Source: Pseudorhodobacter sp. PARRP1 (GTDB taxonomy: Bacteria > Pseudomonadota > Alphaproteobacteria > Rhodobacterales > Rhodobacteraceae). Taken from it: a stretch of DNA of 64,000 nt. Each line of letters starts with the position of its first letter. The first letter of the stretch is position 1. Of the stretch, positions 41,921 to 59,512 are shown piece by piece. The notes beneath the pieces are model-generated. The model made no database searches. It was given only the letters and a program-made list of their open reading frames with translations, and was not told the DNA's origin. Location: the NCBI GenBank assembly GCA_002256245.1, contig NKIU01000002.1, positions 62,001-126,000 on the forward strand, written 5' to 3'. Both the position numbers and the translations under genes were made by a program.

Positions 41921-43195
41921 TTAGCCTTGCGCCTTGACCGATGCCAGTTTCGCCACCTTCGCCGCACCGGAATTGGCGTCGATGAATGACAACACCAGCG
42001 GGCGGATGTTCAACCGCCAGCTTTTGCCCGCGAAGATGCCGTAGTGGCCAGCCCCCGGCTCTAGGTGCTGCGCCTTTTTGGCGTCGGGCAGGCCCGTCAG
42101 CATCCCAAGTGCTGCGACGCATTGGCCGGGGGCAGAAATGTCGTCATTCTCGCCCTCGACCGTCATCACCGCCACGCGTGTGATCGCCCCGATATCCACC
42201 TTTTTGCCCGCAACCACGAATTCATTCTTCGCAATCTCGCGGTTCTTGAAGATCCGCTCGACCGTCGAAAGATAGAACTCGGCGGTCATGTCCATCACCG
42301 CCAGATATTCGTCGTAGAACCGGTTATGCGCGTCGTGATCCGAAGCCTCACCCTGCGCCACCCGCATGATCTGATCGCTGAACGCCTTGGAATGCCGCTC
42401 GGCGTTCATCGACATGAAGCTTTGCAACTGCAACAGCCCCGGATAAACCAACCGCCCGACGCCCTTGTATTTGAAGCCGACGCGCTGAATGGCGATTTGC
42501 TCCAACTGGCCCATGGTGATCCGGCGGCCAAAATCGGTCACATCCGTCGCTGCCGCATCGGGGTCAATCGGCCCGCCGATCAGCGTCAAGGATCGCGGCT
42601 GCGCATCGGGGTCTTCACCCGCCAGATAGGCCGTGGCGGCCAAGGTCAAGGGCGCAGGCTGGCACACCGCGATCACATGGGTATCAGGCCCAAGCGCGCG
42701 CATGAACTCCACCAGATACAGCGTGTAATCTTCGATATCGAACTTGCCAGCCGATACCGGAATATCGCGGGCATTGTGCCAATCGGTGATGAACACATCC
42801 GCATCCGGCAACAGGCTGGCCACGGTGGATCGCAGCAGCGTCGCATAATGCCCCGACATCGGCGCCACCAGCAGCACCTTGCGGGCCATCGGCGCACGCC
42901 TGCGCACCGAAAACTGCATCAGGCTGCCGAAAGGACGCTCCACCACCGGCACCACATCAACCAGATGGTCCTGCGCCTCTGGCCCCGGAATAGACCGGAT
43001 GCCCCAATCGGGTTTGGTCACCATGCGGCCAAAGCTGCGCTCGGTCACCTCACCCCAGGCTGCCATCACTTGCAGCATCGGGTTCATCGTCATGGAAAAC
43101 GCCGGATAAGACGCCATGGCGCGCGCGGTGGCACCCATCCACTCATTCGTGTTACGAATGCTTTCCATAAGGTCGTAGGTCGCCATATACTTCAT
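41921..43195 (-). CDS. phaZ: Intracellular polyhydroxyalkanoate depolymerase
   Basis: A 424-residue enzyme that degrades stored polyhydroxybutyrate granules. The family's cysteine nucleophile is in AVCQPAP (Cys178), acid in VEGENDDISAPGQC, and His in GAGHYGIFAGKSWR. It begins MKYMATYDLMESIRNTNEW; the ATG ending at 43195 was used, and Met4 is an alternative. Divergent from phaC, so storage and mobilisation genes share a control region. Confidence 0.92.
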   Translation of the reverse strand: MKYMATYDLMESIRNTNEWMGATARAMASYPAFSMTMNPMLQVMAAWGEVTERSFGRMVTKPDWGIRSIPGPEAQDHLVDVVPVVERPFGSLMQFSVRRRAPMARKVLLVAPMSGHYATLLRSTVASLLPDADVFITDWHNARDIPVSAGKFDIEDYTLYLVEFMRALGPDTHVIAVCQPAPLTLAATAYLAGEDPDAQPRSLTLIGGPIDPDAAATDVTDFGRRITMGQLEQIAIQRVGFKYKGVGRLVYPGLLQLQSFMSMNAERHSKAFSDQIMRVAQGEASDHDAHNRFYDEYLAVMDMTAEFYLSTVERIFKNREIAKNEFVVAGKKVDIGAITRVAVMTVEGENDDISAPGQCVAALGMLTGLPDAKKAQHLEPGAGHYGIFAGKSWRLNIRPLVLSFIDANSGAAKVAKLASVKAQG

Positions 43196-43265
43196 CACGA
43201 CTCCTTGCGGGGAGAGGGCCCCGGCCCAAACTCTGCCGGGCCCCTTGGGAGGGGGCGGCGTCATG

Positions 43266-43276
43266 CTGCACAGCAG
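43266..43276. promoter_or_regulatory. Candidate PhaR operator upstream of phaC
   Basis: CTGCACAGCAG matches CTGC-N3-GCAG exactly. It lies 25 bp upstream of the phaC start in the phaZ-phaC divergent gap. CTGC-N3/4-GCAG is the site described for PhaR of Paracoccus and Rhodobacter. Confidence 0.6.
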
Positions 43277-43300
43277 AAAGAATAGGGGCGAAAGATTAAC

Positions 43301-45106
43301 ATGACAACCGAAGACACTGCTGCGGGTGCAAAATTAGAGAAGATGACCGCTAATCTTGCCAAAATAGAAGCATTGTCAGCGCGTCTTATGGCGGCCATGG
43401 CGACGAAAAAAGCCTCGGACCCCGGTGTGCAGGGGCCAGGGCAGGAAATTTACCTGAAGGCGGCGGCCGCCTATCTGGCCGGCATGATGCAGAATCCTGC
43501 CAAGGTGCTGGAACATCAGATCGCCTATTGGGGCAAGACGATGAAGCATTATGTCGAGGCGCAGCAGGCCTTGGCGAGCGGCGAGTTGAAGGCCCCCGCC
43601 GACACCGGCCCAGCCGATCGGCGGTTCTCGAACCCGCTCTGGGATACCCATCCGGCGTTCAACTACCTTAAACAGCAATATCTGTTCAACGCCGAGGCCG
43701 TGCAGAACGCCGTCGGCGATATGGAATCCATCGACGCGGGCGACAAAAAGCGCATCGAGTATTTCACCAAGCAGATCATCGACATGCTGTCGCCCACCAA
43801 CTTTCTGGGCACCAACCCCGACGCTTTGGAAAAGGCCGTGGCGACCGATGGCGAAAGCCTTGTGCGCGGGCTTGAAAACCTTGTGGCGGATATTGAGGCC
43901 AACAACGGCGAGTTGGCGGTGACCTTGGCGGATCGTGAGGCGTTCGTCTTGGGCGAGAACATCGCCACCACGCCGGGATCAGTGGTGTTTCGCAACCGCA
44001 TGTTGGAACTGATCCAATACACGCCCAGCACCGAGACTGTTTTTCAAACCCCGCTGCTGATCTTCCCGCCGTGGATCAACAAATACTATGTGATGGACCT
44101 TAAACCGCAGAACAGCCTGATCAAATGGATCGTCGATCAGGGCTTCACGCTGTTCGTGGTCAGTTGGGTCAACCCGGACGCGTCCTATGCCGATGTCGGG
44201 ATGGATGACTACATCCGCGAAGGCTATCTCACCGCGATGGCCGAGGTGCGCCGGATCACCGATCAAAAGCAGATCAACGCGGTGGGCTACTGCATCGCTG
44301 GCACCACTTTGTCGCTGACCCTGTCGCATCTGCACCGGGCGGGGGATACGTCGGTCAAATCGGCGACGTTTTTCACCATGCTGACCGATTTTTCCGATCC
44401 CGGTGAAGTCGGCGTGTTCCTCGACAACGATTTCGTCGATGGGATCGAGCGCCAAAGCAACGCCGATGGCATGCTGTCGAAAACCTTCATGAGCCGGACG
44501 TTCAGCTACCTGCGCTCGAATGATCTGATCTACGGCCCGGCGATCAAAAGCTACATGATGGGCGAGGCCCCGCCCGCGTTTGACCTTTTGTATTGGAACG
44601 GCGACGGCACCAATCTGCCCTGCAAGATGGCGATCGAATATCTGCGTGGGCTTTGTCAGGATGATGGTCTGGCGCAGGGGACGTATAAGGTGTTTGGCCA
44701 CAACGTCAGCCTGAAGGATATCCAAATCCCGGTCTGTGCCATTGCGTGCGAGACCGACCACATCGCGCATTGGCGCGGCAGCTTCAACGGCTTCAAGCAA
44801 ATGGGCTCGGCGGACAAGACCTTCATCGTCTCGCAGTCCGGCCATATCGCGGGCATCATCAATCCGCCGTCGAAAGGCAAATACGGGCACTACACAAATG
44901 CGGGGCCGGTTGCGGGTGCGCCCGATGATTGGATGGCCAGCGCCACCTTTAACCAGGGCAGTTGGTGGCCGCGCTGGAGCGCCTGGCTTGCGGCGCAATC
45001 GGGGGGGCAAATTCCTGCGCGTATCCCCGGTGATTCGGTGCGCCCCGTGCTGTGTGCCGCACCCGGAACCTATGTAACAAAGGCCCCCGGCTCGCCAATG
45101 GGTTGA
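43301..45106 (+). CDS. phaC: Class I polyhydroxyalkanoate synthase
   Basis: A 601-residue PHA polymerase that links hydroxyacyl-CoA units into polyester. The lipase-like box GYCIAG contains the catalytic Cys331, with Asp486 (ACETDHIAHW) and His515 (SQSGHIAGI). The length and the absence of a PhaE or PhaR-subunit partner indicate class I. The N-terminal about 110 residues form the usual variable domain. The phasin gene is downstream. Confidence 0.95.
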   Translation: MTTEDTAAGAKLEKMTANLAKIEALSARLMAAMATKKASDPGVQGPGQEIYLKAAAAYLAGMMQNPAKVLEHQIAYWGKTMKHYVEAQQALASGELKAPADTGPADRRFSNPLWDTHPAFNYLKQQYLFNAEAVQNAVGDMESIDAGDKKRIEYFTKQIIDMLSPTNFLGTNPDALEKAVATDGESLVRGLENLVADIEANNGELAVTLADREAFVLGENIATTPGSVVFRNRMLELIQYTPSTETVFQTPLLIFPPWINKYYVMDLKPQNSLIKWIVDQGFTLFVVSWVNPDASYADVGMDDYIREGYLTAMAEVRRITDQKQINAVGYCIAGTTLSLTLSHLHRAGDTSVKSATFFTMLTDFSDPGEVGVFLDNDFVDGIERQSNADGMLSKTFMSRTFSYLRSNDLIYGPAIKSYMMGEAPPAFDLLYWNGDGTNLPCKMAIEYLRGLCQDDGLAQGTYKVFGHNVSLKDIQIPVCAIACETDHIAHWRGSFNGFKQMGSADKTFIVSQSGHIAGIINPPSKGKYGHYTNAGPVAGAPDDWMASATFNQGSWWPRWSAWLAAQSGGQIPARIPGDSVRPVLCAAPGTYVTKAPGSPMG

Positions 45107-45161
45107 GTTTGCACGGCTTTCGGTAAGCTCGCCCTGCGCTGGCCCTGCGACACTGTCATTG

Positions 45162-45200
45162 CTGCGTTGCAGAAAATTCACTTGCAATGCTGCACCGCAG
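45162..45200. promoter_or_regulatory. Two candidate PhaR operators upstream of phaP
   Basis: CTGCGTTGCAG (45162-45172) and CTGCACCGCAG (45190-45200) both match CTGC-N3-GCAG exactly, 28 bp apart centre to centre. They lie 60-100 bp upstream of the phaP start, where PhaR represses the phasin gene in related bacteria. Confidence 0.8.
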
Positions 45201-45260
45201 CAATTATATCTGGCTCATCGAAAAGCGGGTTTGTTTCCCGCAGACCTGTAGGAGCCTCAA

Positions 45261-45716
45261 ATGACCAATGCGAATGATTTCACCAAAGTCATGCAAGACA
45301 TGATGGCCAAGTTCCCGGTTGACGCTTCGGCGTTCCAGAACGCATTCAAAACCCAAGCCGCATTCGGCGAGAAACTGTCGAAAGTGGCGCTGGAAGCTGC
45401 TGAAAAATCGACCGAAATCTCTTCCAAATGGGCAAAAGAGACCATCGCCAAGCTGTCGGGCGCTGCAAAGGCCAAGGCCGAGCCGGCTGACTACACCAAG
45501 TCGATGACCGATTTTGCTTCGGCTGCGGCGGAAATGGCTTCGGAAAACATGGCGGCTTTCGCTGAAGTTGCGAAAAAAGTGCAGATGGAAACCGTCGAGC
45601 TGCTGCTTGCCGCTGGCAAAGACGTGTCGGCTGAAGCTTCGGCTGTGGTGAAAAAAGCCACCGACGAAGTGACCGCTGCAACCAAGAAAGCCACCGCAGC
45701 CACCGCTGCGAAGTAA
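45261..45716 (+). CDS. phaP: Phasin (PHA granule-associated protein)
   Basis: A 151-residue amphipathic, helical, Ala/Lys-rich protein. It coats PHA granules. The low-complexity C-terminal tail VVKKATDEVTAATKKATAAT is typical. TAGGAGCC precedes the ATG. Two PhaR-type operators upstream and a strong terminator downstream indicate an independent transcript, expected to be induced as PHA granules titrate PhaR. Confidence 0.9.
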   Translation: MTNANDFTKVMQDMMAKFPVDASAFQNAFKTQAAFGEKLSKVALEAAEKSTEISSKWAKETIAKLSGAAKAKAEPADYTKSMTDFASAAAEMASENMAAFAEVAKKVQMETVELLLAAGKDVSAEASAVVKKATDEVTAATKKATAATAAK

Positions 45717-45763
45717 TCCGCAAGGATCGCGCATCCTGATTTCCTCCCTGATTTGGAATGCAT

Positions 45764-45795
45764 AGGGCGGGCCATTGTGCCCGCCCTTTCTTTTT
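45764..45795 (+). terminator. Rho-independent terminator of phaP
   Basis: AGGGCGGGC (45764-45772) and GCCCGCCCT (45779-45787) form a perfect 9-bp stem, followed by TTCTTTTT. Confidence 0.9.
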
Positions 45796-45819
45796 GCGAA
45801 CGGCTGTCCTAGACTTTCT

Positions 45820-45830
45820 CTGCACTGCAA
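45820..45830. promoter_or_regulatory. Imperfect PhaR operator upstream of phaR
   Basis: CTGCACTGCAA matches CTGC-N3-GCAG at 7 of 8 positions, 19 bp before the phaR start. It would allow autoregulation. Confidence 0.45.
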
Positions 45831-45848
45831 TATCTTGGGGAGAGAACT

Positions 45849-46403
45849 ATGGCCGAACCTGCTAAGCCGCTGTTGATCAAGCGCTACGCCAGCCGTCGTC
45901 TCTACAACACCGAGACTTCTGATTACGTCACGCTGGAAGACATTGCAGGCTTCATCCGCGCTGGGCGCGAGGTGCAGATCGTTGATCTGAAATCGGGCGA
46001 TGATCTGACCCGGCAGTATCTGTTGCAGATCGTGGCCGAGCATGAATCCAAAGGCGACACGGTCTTGCCGACCAATGTGCTGACCGATCTTGTGCGCAGC
46101 TACACCTCGAACATCCAATCGGTGGTGCCGCAATTCCTCGCCGCCAGTTTTGAGATGCTGCGCGATGGCCCCACCAAAGTCATCGAGAACATGAACGCCA
46201 TCCCGAACCCGATGACGGCGATGCCGGGGTTCGATCTGATGCGCAAGCAGCAGGAAGCCTTCATGAAAACCATGATGGGCGGCGTTCCGGGCTGGGGTGG
46301 GTCTGGCCCTGCCAAGGACGATGCGGCGCAAGACCCGGCCGAGGAATTGGCCGAGATCAAAAAGCAATTCGCCGAGCTTCAGAAGAAGCTGTCCAAGCTT
46401 TAG
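45849..46403 (+). CDS. phaR: PHA synthesis repressor PhaR
   Basis: A 184-residue regulator that binds both DNA and PHA. The N-terminal PHB-accumulation DNA-binding domain reads LLIKRYASRRLYNTETSDYVTLEDIAGFIRAGREVQIVDLKSGDDLT. A second domain (about 65-105) covers QYLLQIVAEHESKGDTVLP. A helical, Gln/Lys-rich tail ends in a coiled-coil-like EELAEIKKQFAELQKKLSKL. It represses phaP (and likely phaC) until PHA is made. A LysR gene follows 15 bp later. Confidence 0.93.
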   Translation: MAEPAKPLLIKRYASRRLYNTETSDYVTLEDIAGFIRAGREVQIVDLKSGDDLTRQYLLQIVAEHESKGDTVLPTNVLTDLVRSYTSNIQSVVPQFLAASFEMLRDGPTKVIENMNAIPNPMTAMPGFDLMRKQQEAFMKTMMGGVPGWGGSGPAKDDAAQDPAEELAEIKKQFAELQKKLSKL

Positions 46404-55955: not shown

Positions 55956-56032
55956 GATCTTGCCTGTTTTGTCCGGCGCGAACTATCGCGGCGCGCCGTG
56001 GCGGATGCAAGGGGCGGTAATGGGGGAGAAGC

Positions 56033-56101
56033 GGCAGCGACCCTTGGGAGGAGGTAAGGGCCGCTGCCTGATCGCGCGGGCCAGGGAGGAGGTTGGCCGC
56101 T
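56033..56101 (-). ncRNA. CcsR-like sRNA unit 6
   Basis: Hairpins at 56078-56100 and 56033-56068 (13-bp stem with one G-U on the minus strand). Last unit; no obvious U-run follows, so its 3' end may arise by processing or read-through toward benE. Confidence 0.7.
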
Positions 56102-56111
56102 CGAATAGGGT

Positions 56112-56178
56112 GGCGGTGATCCAGGGAGGAGGTTGGATCACCGCCTGATCGCGCAGGCCAGGGAGGAGGTTGGCCGCT
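56112..56178 (-). ncRNA. CcsR-like sRNA unit 5
   Basis: Hairpins at 56154-56178 and 56112-56145 (perfect 12-bp stem). It differs from unit 4 by a single base (the bulged position, T instead of C on the minus strand). Confidence 0.75.
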
Positions 56179-56188
56179 CGAATAGGGT

Positions 56189-56255
56189 GGCGGTGATCCA
56201 GGGAGGAGGTTGGATCACCGCCTGATCGCGCGGGCCAGGGAGGAGGTTGGCCGCT
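56189..56255 (-). ncRNA. CcsR-like sRNA unit 4
   Basis: Hairpins at 56231-56253 (short GGCCA-type stem with a bulged base) and 56189-56222 (perfect 12-bp stem). Nearly identical to unit 5. Confidence 0.75.
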
Positions 56256-56265
56256 CGAATAGGGT

Positions 56266-56331
56266 GGCGGCGATCCCAGGGAGGAGGAGGGGATCACCGC
56301 CTGATCACTCGGCCAGGGAGGAGGTTGGCTG
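56266..56331 (-). ncRNA. CcsR-like sRNA unit 3
   Basis: Hairpins at about 56311-56330 and 56266-56301 (11-bp stem, one G-U on the minus strand). The second loop is enlarged (extra AGG on the plus strand). Confidence 0.7.
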
Positions 56332-56343
56332 CGCGAATAGGGT

Positions 56344-56408
56344 GCGACGATCTTAGGGAGGAGCAAGATCGCCGCGTGTCCGAGAGCCCAAGGGAGGAGG
56401 AGGCTCAT
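56344..56408 (-). ncRNA. CcsR-like sRNA unit 2
   Basis: Hairpins at 56384-56406 (GAGCC stem) and 56344-56375 (11-bp stem with one G-U on the minus strand), both with CCTCCTCC loops. Confidence 0.7.
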
Positions 56409-56423
56409 CGAAGAGAATAAAAA

Positions 56424-56494
56424 GGCGACGGCGCAAGGGAGGAGTTGCGCGCCGCCGCGCCGTGAAACCAAGCCGCTGGGAGGAGGTAGCGGCC
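56424..56494 (-). ncRNA. CcsR-like sRNA unit 1
   Basis: Two hairpins with CCTCCTCC loops: 56472-56493 (perfect GCCGCT stem) and 56424-56456 (TTGCGC stem). Unlike the other units, its second hairpin is followed on the minus strand by TTTTTATT (56415-56423), so it may end at a terminator. Most divergent unit. Confidence 0.7.
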
Positions 56495-56504
56495 GGTTCA
56501 GGGA

Positions 56505-56720
56505 TTACTTGCCGTAAGCTGCCTCACGGGCGATCTCACCGATCAGCGAGCGTGCGATGCCCAGGTCGGACAGTTCGCGGTCGGTCAGCTGACGCAGTTC
56601 GCGGATGGTGCGGTCATAGACCCGGCGGCGTGCCAGCATGGCCGAGATCGAGGCGAAGATGCCCGAGATACGGTCGGAAGCGGTTGCCGATACAGTGCGG
56701 GTCGAATTTACATATGCCAT
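56505..56720 (-). CDS. ccaF1: DUF1127 small protein, CcaF1-like RNA-binding protein
   Basis: A 71-residue basic protein. The N-terminal half is polar (STRTVSATASDRISGIFASISAMLARRR). The DUF1127 core at 38-60 reads TIRELRQLTDRELSDLGIARSLI. Length, core and the sRNA array directly downstream match R. sphaeroides CcaF1 (RSP_6037), a DUF1127 protein shown to bind RNA and to affect maturation of the CcsR sRNAs. A GTGAGGCT RBS precedes the ATG. An RpoH-type promoter is likely upstream. The symbol rests on context and family, not a direct alignment. Confidence 0.8.
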   Translation of the reverse strand: MAYVNSTRTVSATASDRISGIFASISAMLARRRVYDRTIRELRQLTDRELSDLGIARSLIGEIAREAAYGK

Positions 56721-56726
56721 GGTAGC

Positions 56727-57092
56727 CTCACTATTTGTTCTGCGAGCGGTCGGTCTTGGCCGGATGCCGTAACCCATCTGTTCCGCTGTTAGGGGTAACA
56801 TGGGGCAAATGCTGCAACTGCACAATGCCCGTGTGTTCAATGCTGCCATGCAGCAAGCGCATGGCTTAGTGTCGCAAAAAATTCATGTTTAACAGGCGCT
56901 TCGCTGAATATTTGAGCATTTGGTCAACAGGGCTTGCCCTTTTCGACAAAGCGCACAATTTTGCATTGTGCAAGGCCAAAACCTGAGCAGGGAAAAAACT
57001 GCGAAGGGGCGCTGTCGCGTAAGGCAAGGGTTCGATATTCCGTGCAAGGGCAGGCGAATCTCGTCCGGCGGGAAAATTCCGAGGGGAAAATC
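56727..57092. other. Divergent intergenic region ccaF1-mrp
   Basis: About 370 bp holding the RpoH-like promoter of ccaF1, a CTGC-N3-GCAG palindrome (56843-56853) and, at its right end, the mrp RBS (GAGGGG). A/T-rich stretch around 56875-56915. No other gene was seen. Confidence 0.5.
56797..56826 (-). promoter_or_regulatory. Candidate RpoH-type promoter of ccaF1-sRNA transcript
   Basis: On the minus strand: -35-like ATTGTGC (56826-56820), 14-nt spacer, then CCCCATGTT (56805-56797), which fits the heat-shock -10 CCCCAT-T. The start site would fall near 56790, leaving a leader of about 70 nt. R. sphaeroides ccaF1 is driven by RpoHI/RpoHII. A CTGCCATGCAG palindrome of PhaR type lies further upstream at 56843-56853. 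Confidence 0.6.
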
Positions 57093-58565: not shown

Positions 58566-58720
58566 CCAAGCGAAGATTTTTGAGTATCTATATCTAGTGT
58601 TCACGCCGCCGTGAAATCGCCGTTACCGCCTAAATTTAGCGCCCGTCACCACTAGATGCTGTTTCGCGTCTGGCTGCGGAACAACATATTCCCACGATCT
58701 GCCCAAAAATTTCCATTGCT

Positions 58721-58745
58721 TCCCATGAAATCCCATGGCATCCCT
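58721..58745 (-). promoter_or_regulatory. MraZ-box-like cluster 3
   Basis: On the minus strand three GGGA boxes (two of them TGGGA) in 10-bp steps (plus strand CCC at 58722, 58732, 58742). It lies close to the likely start of the mraZ leader RNA, so binding could block the dcw promoter. Confidence 0.55.
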
Positions 58746-58749
58746 TGTT

Positions 58750-58969
58750 TCACGAAGACGGAACGGCGGGACAAAAAAAAGCAGGGGCGGCTGAAGACCC
58801 CGAACAAGGCGAAAAAGACAGGCTCATACAGGCACCCCGCCTTACCCTCTTTGACAGATCCGGCGCGCGAGCGAGCAGACATCTCCCCCAGGTGGCAAGC
58901 GCAGCAGGACGCCCAGCGATGGGACAGACGGCGGACCGAGCAGTGGCAGCAGCTCGGTCCGCCTTTTCT
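58750..58969 (+). ncRNA. upsM: UpsM-like sRNA: 5' leader of mraZ ending at a terminator
   Basis: The about 270-bp mraZ leader ends, 43 bp before the ATG, in a strong intrinsic terminator. In R. sphaeroides the same layout yields UpsM (about 206 nt), made by termination in the mraZ 5' UTR and processed in stress. The 5' end is not defined by sequence; about 58745-58765 would give that size. A TTGACA at 58851 could be an additional -35, but no convincing -10 follows. Named by position and structure, not by sequence alignment. Confidence 0.65.
58931..58969 (+). terminator. Intrinsic terminator in the mraZ leader
   Basis: GCGGACCGAGC (58931-58941) and GCTCGGTCCGC (58952-58962) form a perfect 11-bp stem with a 10-nt loop, followed by CTTTTCTATTT. 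It must be read through for mraZ and the dcw genes to be expressed. Confidence 0.9.
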
Positions 58970-59011
58970 ATTTCAAGGGGTAGCGATACCCCAAAAGGAG
59001 CCGCAAGGCCG

Positions 59012-59512
59012 ATGGTGAGTGAGGCGTTCAGAGGCGAGTTCTACCAGAAGGTAGATAGCAAGGCGCGGGTTTCGATCCCGGCAGCCTTCCGCCGCATTCT
59101 GGAAGCAGAAGACGCCAGCACCACCGAATCCCGCCCGCGTGTTTACATGGTCTATGGCGGCAAAAACCGGAATTTCGTCGAATGTTACTCGAAGGCGGGC
59201 GCGGATGCGCTGGCGGCCAAGATCGAGGGCATGGAAATGGGCTCGCCCGAGCGTGACCGGGCAGAGCGCGATTTGATCTCGCGCTCGGTGATGGTCGAGA
59301 TTGAACCCGATGGCCGCATTGTTCTGCCGCTGAAAGTGCGCGCGAAGATGGGCTTTTCGGCCGAGGAATCGGCGGGCGAGGCGGCGTTTGCGGGCTTTAC
59401 CAACCGCTTCAAGCTGTATCGCCGCGAAGTCTATGACGCCGAAAACGAAGACGACGATGATGATGGCGTCGATCCGCTGGCCCTTGTGGGCCGGGCTTCG
59501 CGGGCGGGTTAA
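59012..59512 (+). CDS. mraZ: Transcriptional regulator / division protein MraZ
   Basis: A 166-residue protein with two AbrB-like half-domains: [15 protein letters not shown] (about 12-26) and [17 protein letters not shown] (about 96-112). It forms a ring and represses the dcw operon in E. coli by binding TGGG-type repeats. AAAAGGAG lies about 10 nt before the ATG; a GTG directly follows as an alternative start. The C-terminus carries an unusual acidic tail ([15 protein letters not shown]). First gene of the dcw cluster; rsmH starts one base after its stop codon. Confidence 0.93.

Follow-up and report, generated by a model that had tools for sequence, protein, structure and literature searches.

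The closest described counterpart of the locus reported here is the ccaF1-CcsR1-4 operon of R. sphaeroides, in which a DUF1127 gene is followed on the same strand by tandem two-hairpin RNAs with CCUCCUCCC-type loops. It encodes four such RNAs, CcsR1-4, and is drawn with a terminator at its 3' end (PMC10253847; statements taken from this and the other papers cited refer to the excerpts available). flhR mRNA is a target of the CcsR RNAs, which also have effects on glutathione and pyruvate dehydrogenase, while CcaF1 influences their maturation and half-life (PMC8307010). For YjiS, also a DUF1127 protein, no binding of RNA is seen (PMC12501420).

Two small RNAs of Sinorhizobium meliloti are related in other respects. 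Rhizobial RNAs with the same loop have been described as anti-Shine-Dalgarno RNAs (PMC3927594), and one of them, NfeR1 (alpha-r14), has redundant loops of this type, silences ntrB through them, and has candidate targets that are mostly ABC transport systems; it consists of one RNA with three hairpins, has a promoter of its own and is not repeated in tandem, and the available text mentions no DUF1127 partner (PMC10746234). MmgR is repressed by AniA/PhaR, its gene carries a PhaR-type promoter dyad, and it is tied to carbon storage; it is one 77-nt RNA, and no DUF1127 partner appears in the excerpts (PMC8401924, PMC12542648).

In the present work we analyse a locus within a 64,000-nucleotide stretch of DNA, called the window throughout, which has the plan of the ccaF1-CcsR1-4 operon but six units instead of four, and which carries a candidate PhaR operator in its promoter.

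Results

A DUF1127 gene followed by six two-hairpin units

The original prediction, made from the letters alone, placed six two-hairpin units of the CcsR ("cuckoo") type behind a DUF1127 gene. The elements found are as follows.

56505..56720, minus strand: DUF1127 protein gene (CcaF1-like), 71 aa, PF06568 E=2.8e-10
56422..56500, minus strand: unit 1 (hairpins 1 and 2), model R1 42.4 bits, E=6.7e-7
56341..56414, minus strand: unit 2, R1 57.2 bits
56264..56338, minus strand: unit 3, R1 68 bits
56187..56260, minus strand: unit 4, R1 56.5 bits
56110..56183, minus strand: unit 5, R1 54.8 bits, identical to unit 4 at 76/77 positions
56031..56106, minus strand: unit 6, R1 63.7 bits
56411..56424, minus strand: U-rich tract CTTTTTATTCTCTT behind hairpin 2, resembling a terminator or else an RNase E site, located by T count
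56334..56343, minus strand (also 56256-56265, 56179-56188 and 56102-56111): inter-unit linker ACCCTATTCG, proposed cleavage site

The gene reads from an ATG start codon (CDS 56720-56505), and its stop codon is followed after 19 nt by the first of twelve CTCCTCCC motifs, which run on the minus strand from 56485 to 56046 and of which ten are CCTCCTCCC; the plus strand of the window has none. The 491-nt array stretch folds at -228.4 kcal/mol, compared with a shuffle mean of -156.4 (z -12.1), and none of 100 shuffles was as low. A covariance model, R1, was built from 57 two-hairpin units (alignment A2) of 20 loci in other genomes, one of which (L107) is probably from G247, a genome of the same genus. 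In the window it finds six tandem units, all on the minus strand, with E values from 7e-12 to 7e-7, the next match having E=2.2; the whole-genome search, in which 150 of 1864 first-look candidates were scored, returns exactly these six places. Rfam at its gathering threshold gave no match in the window.

The six predicted units and the nature of the gene are thereby confirmed, and the proposed recent tandem duplication of two neighbouring units is supported: beside the near identity of units 4 and 5, the next closest pair, units 4 and 6, agrees at 54 positions. Judged by its structural marks, the locus belongs to the known CIN1/CcsR kind, with a DUF1127 gene directly 5' on the same strand and several adjacent hairpins that each carry a CCUCCUCCC-type loop. 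The single-RNA form of NfeR1 does not describe it: here a DUF1127 gene is followed by six units with twelve hairpins in all. Elsewhere in the window, at about 58600-59512, mraZ heads a cell-division cluster; a small RNA, UpsM, has been reported from a long mraZ leader in Rhodobacteraceae (PMC5089854, excerpt).

Arrays in the family

A three-motif pattern is present in 144 of 394 family genomes, the window's own included, while a reversed control pattern matched in about 14 genomes, counted by eye. Loci were fetched from 90 of the 144 positive genomes, and after removal of two duplicates of the own locus (L007 and L008) they gave 94 clusters; 60 of the genomes were hand-chosen and lean to many matches, so that array sizes are biased upward. 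A same-strand DUF1127 gene lies 5' of the array in 85 of the 90 loci, that is at 89 of the 94 clusters, with a median of 23 nt between its stop codon and the first motif.

The number of units, which the original prediction set against the four of R. sphaeroides with the suggestion that a larger array could buffer or titrate more targets, is high without being a record. Nine of the 94 clusters exceed the window's twelve exact motifs (26, 20, 17, 16, 15, 15, 14, 14 and 14), and in ten of the 394 genomes the triple-motif matches equal or outnumber those of the window's genome, itself one of the ten and the lowest. The array is thus real, conserved, located on the minus strand, of a known kind and longer than average. 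In two other genomes, the arrays L012 (G165) and L042 (G366) consist of 26 and 15 exact motifs in near-identical repeated blocks, signs of fresh tandem duplication.

Among named genomes, a search with DUF1127 proteins, from which 80 loci were kept, places the nearest loci in Cypionkella, the C. aquatica protein being 97% identical, so that the window most likely comes from Cypionkella or a close relative. Exact motifs number 13 in C. aquatica, 2+11 in C. psychrotolerans and 9+5 in an unclassified Cypionkella, and therefore the number of units varies within one genus. In the latter two (L100 and L101), the unit-2 loops after hairpin 2 lack CTCCTCCC while their stems are kept, and other hairpins with unrelated loops also stand at the unit-2 place; these altered units are perhaps acquiring a new seed or decaying. 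Cereibacter johrii is a near relative of R. sphaeroides, and its locus (L124) has the plan of the window with eight exact motifs in eight hairpins. The CcsR-like assignment is in line with this locus, which agrees, as does PMC10253847, with the four CcsRs that the original prediction gave for R. sphaeroides.

A conserved, predicted PhaR-type operator in the promoter

A conserved PhaR-like operator upstream of the gene was overlooked by the original prediction. The features concerned are the following.

56841..56855, minus strand: predicted PhaR-type operator TGCTGCATGGCAGCA in the operon promoter, one of seven TGCTGCN3GCAGCA places in the genome
56797..56826, minus strand: promoter-like element ATTGTGC-N17-CATGTT, from 17 aligned sequences
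45849..46403, plus strand: phaR, the repressor proposed for the operator, TIGR01848 E=4.8e-44
45162..45200, plus strand: two CTGCN3GCAG boxes (45162-45172 and 45190-45200) before phaP, serving as the operator's positive control

In 17 aligned upstream regions, blocks conserved across genera are AGCCATGC, GCATGGCAGCATTG, ATTGTGCA, GCAGCA and CATGTT. The promoter pattern was found in 51 of the 80 named loci and in 19 of the 85 unnamed ones. An RpoHI/RpoHII promoter is a mark of CIN1/CcsR loci; the conserved element here is promoter-like without pointing to a particular sigma factor, and a sigma-70 scan near the operon found no promoter.

The operator block TGCTGCATGGCAGCA, with its CTGCN3GCAG core at 56843-56853, contains CTGCNNNGCAG, which has been given as the PhaR binding sequence of R. 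sphaeroides (PMC12542648, excerpt). Within 300 nt 5' of the DUF1127 gene the exact core occurs in 53 of the 85 unnamed loci, against 6 for the reversed form and a mean of 0.47 for shuffles, and 52 exact sites lie between -190 and -85. When one mismatch is allowed, 81 of the 85 loci have the box, compared with 20 for the reversed form; among the named loci, 51 of 80 have it exactly. The box is exact in the window, whereas Cereibacter johrii has it with one mismatch.

The phaR gene lies about 10 kb from the DUF1127 operon, in a storage-polymer cluster at 41921-46403 that comprises phaZ on the minus strand and phaC, a phasin-like phaP and phaR on the plus strand. The name phaP rests on its place between phaC and phaR, since NCBIfam gave no match for its product; PF09361 found no phasin in the genome. 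Like the DUF1127 promoter, the phaP promoter carries CTGCN3GCAG boxes, but two strong ones 28 bp apart instead of one. The exact box is found in 36 of 40 phaP-phaR loci, and the paired boxes of these loci were used to train a PhaR matrix, the training core having been chosen by the CTGCN3GCAG pattern. By this matrix, which owes nothing to the DUF1127 sites, 77 of the 85 DUF1127 promoters score higher than the 99% level set by 329 control stretches (AUC 0.985), and 73 of the 77 best matches lie between -190 and -90. The window box scores 17.6 against a 99% control level of 4.5. Two results tell against PhaR: DUF1127 boxes, with a median of 15.0, score lower than those of phaP, for which the 5% quantile in training is 20.2, and no second PhaR box is recognised in the element over -35, which scores -3.7 in the window.

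Genome-wide claims use the longer palindrome TGCTGCNNNGCAGCA only, because the looser CTGCN3GCAGC gave 81 matches forward and 95 in reverse, a large share of which probably lie in coding DNA; the loose-pattern sites L179-L181 were dropped after their ORFs had been read. The longer palindrome occurs at seven places, its reversed control at none. These are phaP, the DUF1127 operon, 62 bp before mdh (L225, contig C10), 113 bp before zwf (L226, contig C17), a site between converging genes and two within ORFs, so that three of the seven are outside any evident promoter. A putative PhaR site before zwf has also been given for S. meliloti (PMC12542648, excerpt).

It has to be considered whether, in a CcsR-type operon, the TGCTGC-N3-GCAGCA palindrome serves another regulator or a special promoter with PhaR uninvolved, which we regard as unlikely. 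The centre of the box is narrow at DUF1127 genes (31 CTGCATGGCAG and 17 CTGCATAGCAG of 56 sites) and varied at phaP, conservation extends beyond the palindrome, and PhaR is encoded in six genomes that have no box when one mismatch is allowed (L015, L032, L041, L062, L065 and L079), all of which would suit such a reading. It is opposed by the fit of flanks as well as core to the phaP-derived matrix and by the genomic sites at phaP and before mdh and zwf; moreover, the only genome of 80 without PhaR (G150, L069) also lacks the box, a single case. The presence of PhaR as such is uninformative as a test, with 79 of 80 genomes encoding it. Two sequence marks of a PhaR regulon member are found here, namely a CTGCN3GCAG operator in the promoter and PhaR encoded in the genome. 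What may be new is the predicted PhaR operator over the operon, which is well supported as sequence. In the searchable literature, which omits the main cuckoo, CcsR and CcaF1 papers, PhaR is mentioned neither together with CcsR or CcaF1 nor, in any relevant context, together with DUF1127.

Invariant loops, covarying stems and predicted targets

The loop is constant and the stems vary, as in CIN1/CcsR RNAs: both loops are CTCCTCCC in all 57 units of A2, partly by construction as the units were selected by this exact motif. In the second hairpin, to which the covariation count refers since the first aligned too poorly for the A2 consensus, 9 of 11 pairs show changes on both sides and 98.1% of cells are paired; none of 500 shuffles reached as high, and slid controls pair at most 59.6%. 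Covariation supports the hairpins.

The loop sequence UCCUCCC has GGGAGGA as its complement, which precedes an ATG by 5-12 nt at 41 genome places, its reversed control doing so at one. Thirty of the 41 sites were fetched and six dropped (four ORFs of at most 40 aa, two without a Pfam match), leaving 24 usable ORFs, of which 11 encode periplasmic solute-binding proteins (L237, L246-L250, L253, L254, L256, L257 and L264) and one an ABC permease (L251). For comparison, AAGGAGA is found at 63 places (control 4); 30 were fetched, nine dropped (ORFs under 90 aa) and one of the remaining 21 left out (L294), and among the 20 scanned a solute-binding protein (L280) and a permease (L295) each occur once. 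Solute-binding proteins thus make up 11/24 against 1/20 (Fisher p=0.0027), for sets that are partial, with spacers that differ (5-12 nt for GGGAGGA, 5-10 nt for AAGGAGA) and slightly different ORF length cut-offs. Solute-binding protein genes may also favour such Shine-Dalgarno sequences for other reasons.

The array could instead bind mainly the DUF1127 protein, as a sponge or feedback device like CsrB for CsrA, mRNA pairing being secondary. The tight linkage to DUF1127 genes (85/90), tandem repeats of up to 26 hairpins and the action of CcaF1 on CcsR maturation and half-life (PMC8307010, excerpt) would agree with this. Yet the loop is the Shine-Dalgarno complement and is invariant while the stems vary, and the rhizobial RNAs with the same loop act without a described DUF1127 partner (PMC10746234, excerpt), which makes such a main role improbable.

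Linkers and transcript ends

The U-rich tract after hairpin 2 escaped the original prediction. At least five T in the 8 nt after hairpin 2 are found in 10 of 94 arrays including the window, after the last hairpin in 27 of 94, and at other places among hairpins 1 to 6 in at most one array. Loci of G247, G382, G155 and G178 also have a U-tract after hairpin 2. No U-tract was found after hairpin 12 of the window, unlike the R. sphaeroides operon with its terminator drawn at the 3' end, and a standard terminator scan with a loop limit of 8 nt reports none near the operon. Because a U-tract follows hairpin 2 and none follows hairpin 12, some transcripts may stop at the end of unit 1, and the remaining units may depend on read-through.

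That the hairpins terminate or stabilise the DUF1127 mRNA and do not act in trans is very improbable: CTTTTTAT directly after hairpin 2, and the tracts at this place or after the last hairpin in other arrays, would suit it, but the loops are invariant while the stems turn over, and CcsRs act in trans in R. sphaeroides (PMC8307010, excerpt).

From hairpin 4 up to hairpin 10, every other linker is ACCCTATTCG. RNase E sites of R. sphaeroides are enriched in AU at the cut (PMC6238624, excerpt), and RNase E cleavage at these linkers would fit by analogy.

The coding strand

Across 772 hairpins of the 94 arrays, the motif strand has 628 G-U against 171 A-C, compared with 315 against 340 at random places of the same loci; G-U exceeds A-C in 78 arrays and is exceeded in 8. 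The scoring treats both alike; as related arrays are not independent, the p-value is no fair probability, the direction being clear. Since G-U exceeds A-C across the 94 arrays, the motif strand is the RNA strand, and with all R1 matches on the minus strand the expected minus-strand RNA is upheld. The argument that A-C on one strand becoming G-U on the other reveals selection on a minus-strand RNA stands for the 94 arrays and is weak for the window alone, where the automatic count gives 5 G-U and 4 A-C; four of these G-U sit in clean stems (hairpins 2, 4, 6 and 12), and all four A-C are found in outer extensions, where mismatches occur too. A strand call from the window alone was accordingly rejected. 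A functional plus-strand RNA whose GGGAGGAG loops would soak up a CsrA-like protein is hardly credible, for although it would fold equally stably (-230.1 vs -228.4 kcal/mol), the G-U excess, the DUF1127 gene, the promoter and all model matches lie with the motif strand.

Discussion

Taken as a whole, the locus is probably best explained as a CIN1/CcsR-type operon that silences mRNAs via anti-Shine-Dalgarno loops and stands under a PhaR operator. A single minus-strand transcript would start about 100 nt upstream of the DUF1127 gene and run into the six units, and cleavage in the A/U-rich linkers would yield six near-redundant small RNAs. Their UCCUCCC loops would pair with Shine-Dalgarno sequences and lower translation, above all of mRNAs for periplasmic solute-binding proteins, while the DUF1127 protein would assist the maturation and turnover of the array RNAs. 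PhaR, on the operator just upstream of the promoter, would repress the operon until storage granules draw it away. In this scheme RNA binding, RNase E maturation and anti-Shine-Dalgarno silencing are carried over by analogy from the R. sphaeroides and S. meliloti literature, and we infer PhaR binding, its sign and the targets; the present analysis itself shows the hairpins and units, their strand, covariation and conservation, the linkage to DUF1127, the operator as a sequence and the enrichment of one target class. Against the scheme stand the scores of the DUF1127 boxes below those of phaP, the six PhaR-encoding genomes lacking a box, the one-mismatch box in relatives of R. sphaeroides, the three genomic sites outside evident promoters and the DUF1127 protein YjiS, for which RNA binding is not seen (PMC12501420, excerpt).

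Over the family as a whole it can be put forward, as a plausible but tentative extension, that PhaR, a repressor found on polyhydroxybutyrate granules, controls the DUF1127-CcsR operon, and that the RNAs so freed silence solute-binding protein mRNAs in a feed-forward cut of import.

Our work offers a first tally of array sizes in 394 genomes of the family, and the window adds a longer-than-usual example to a known type of locus. If real, the PhaR operator would connect carbon storage with a stress RNA operon that has been well studied, and would explain the contact of these RNAs with carbon metabolism. If the scheme is true, one logic would be common to the CcsR RNAs of Rhodobacterales and MmgR of rhizobia, and it would be a feed-forward logic, in which cells full of stored carbon lower further import.
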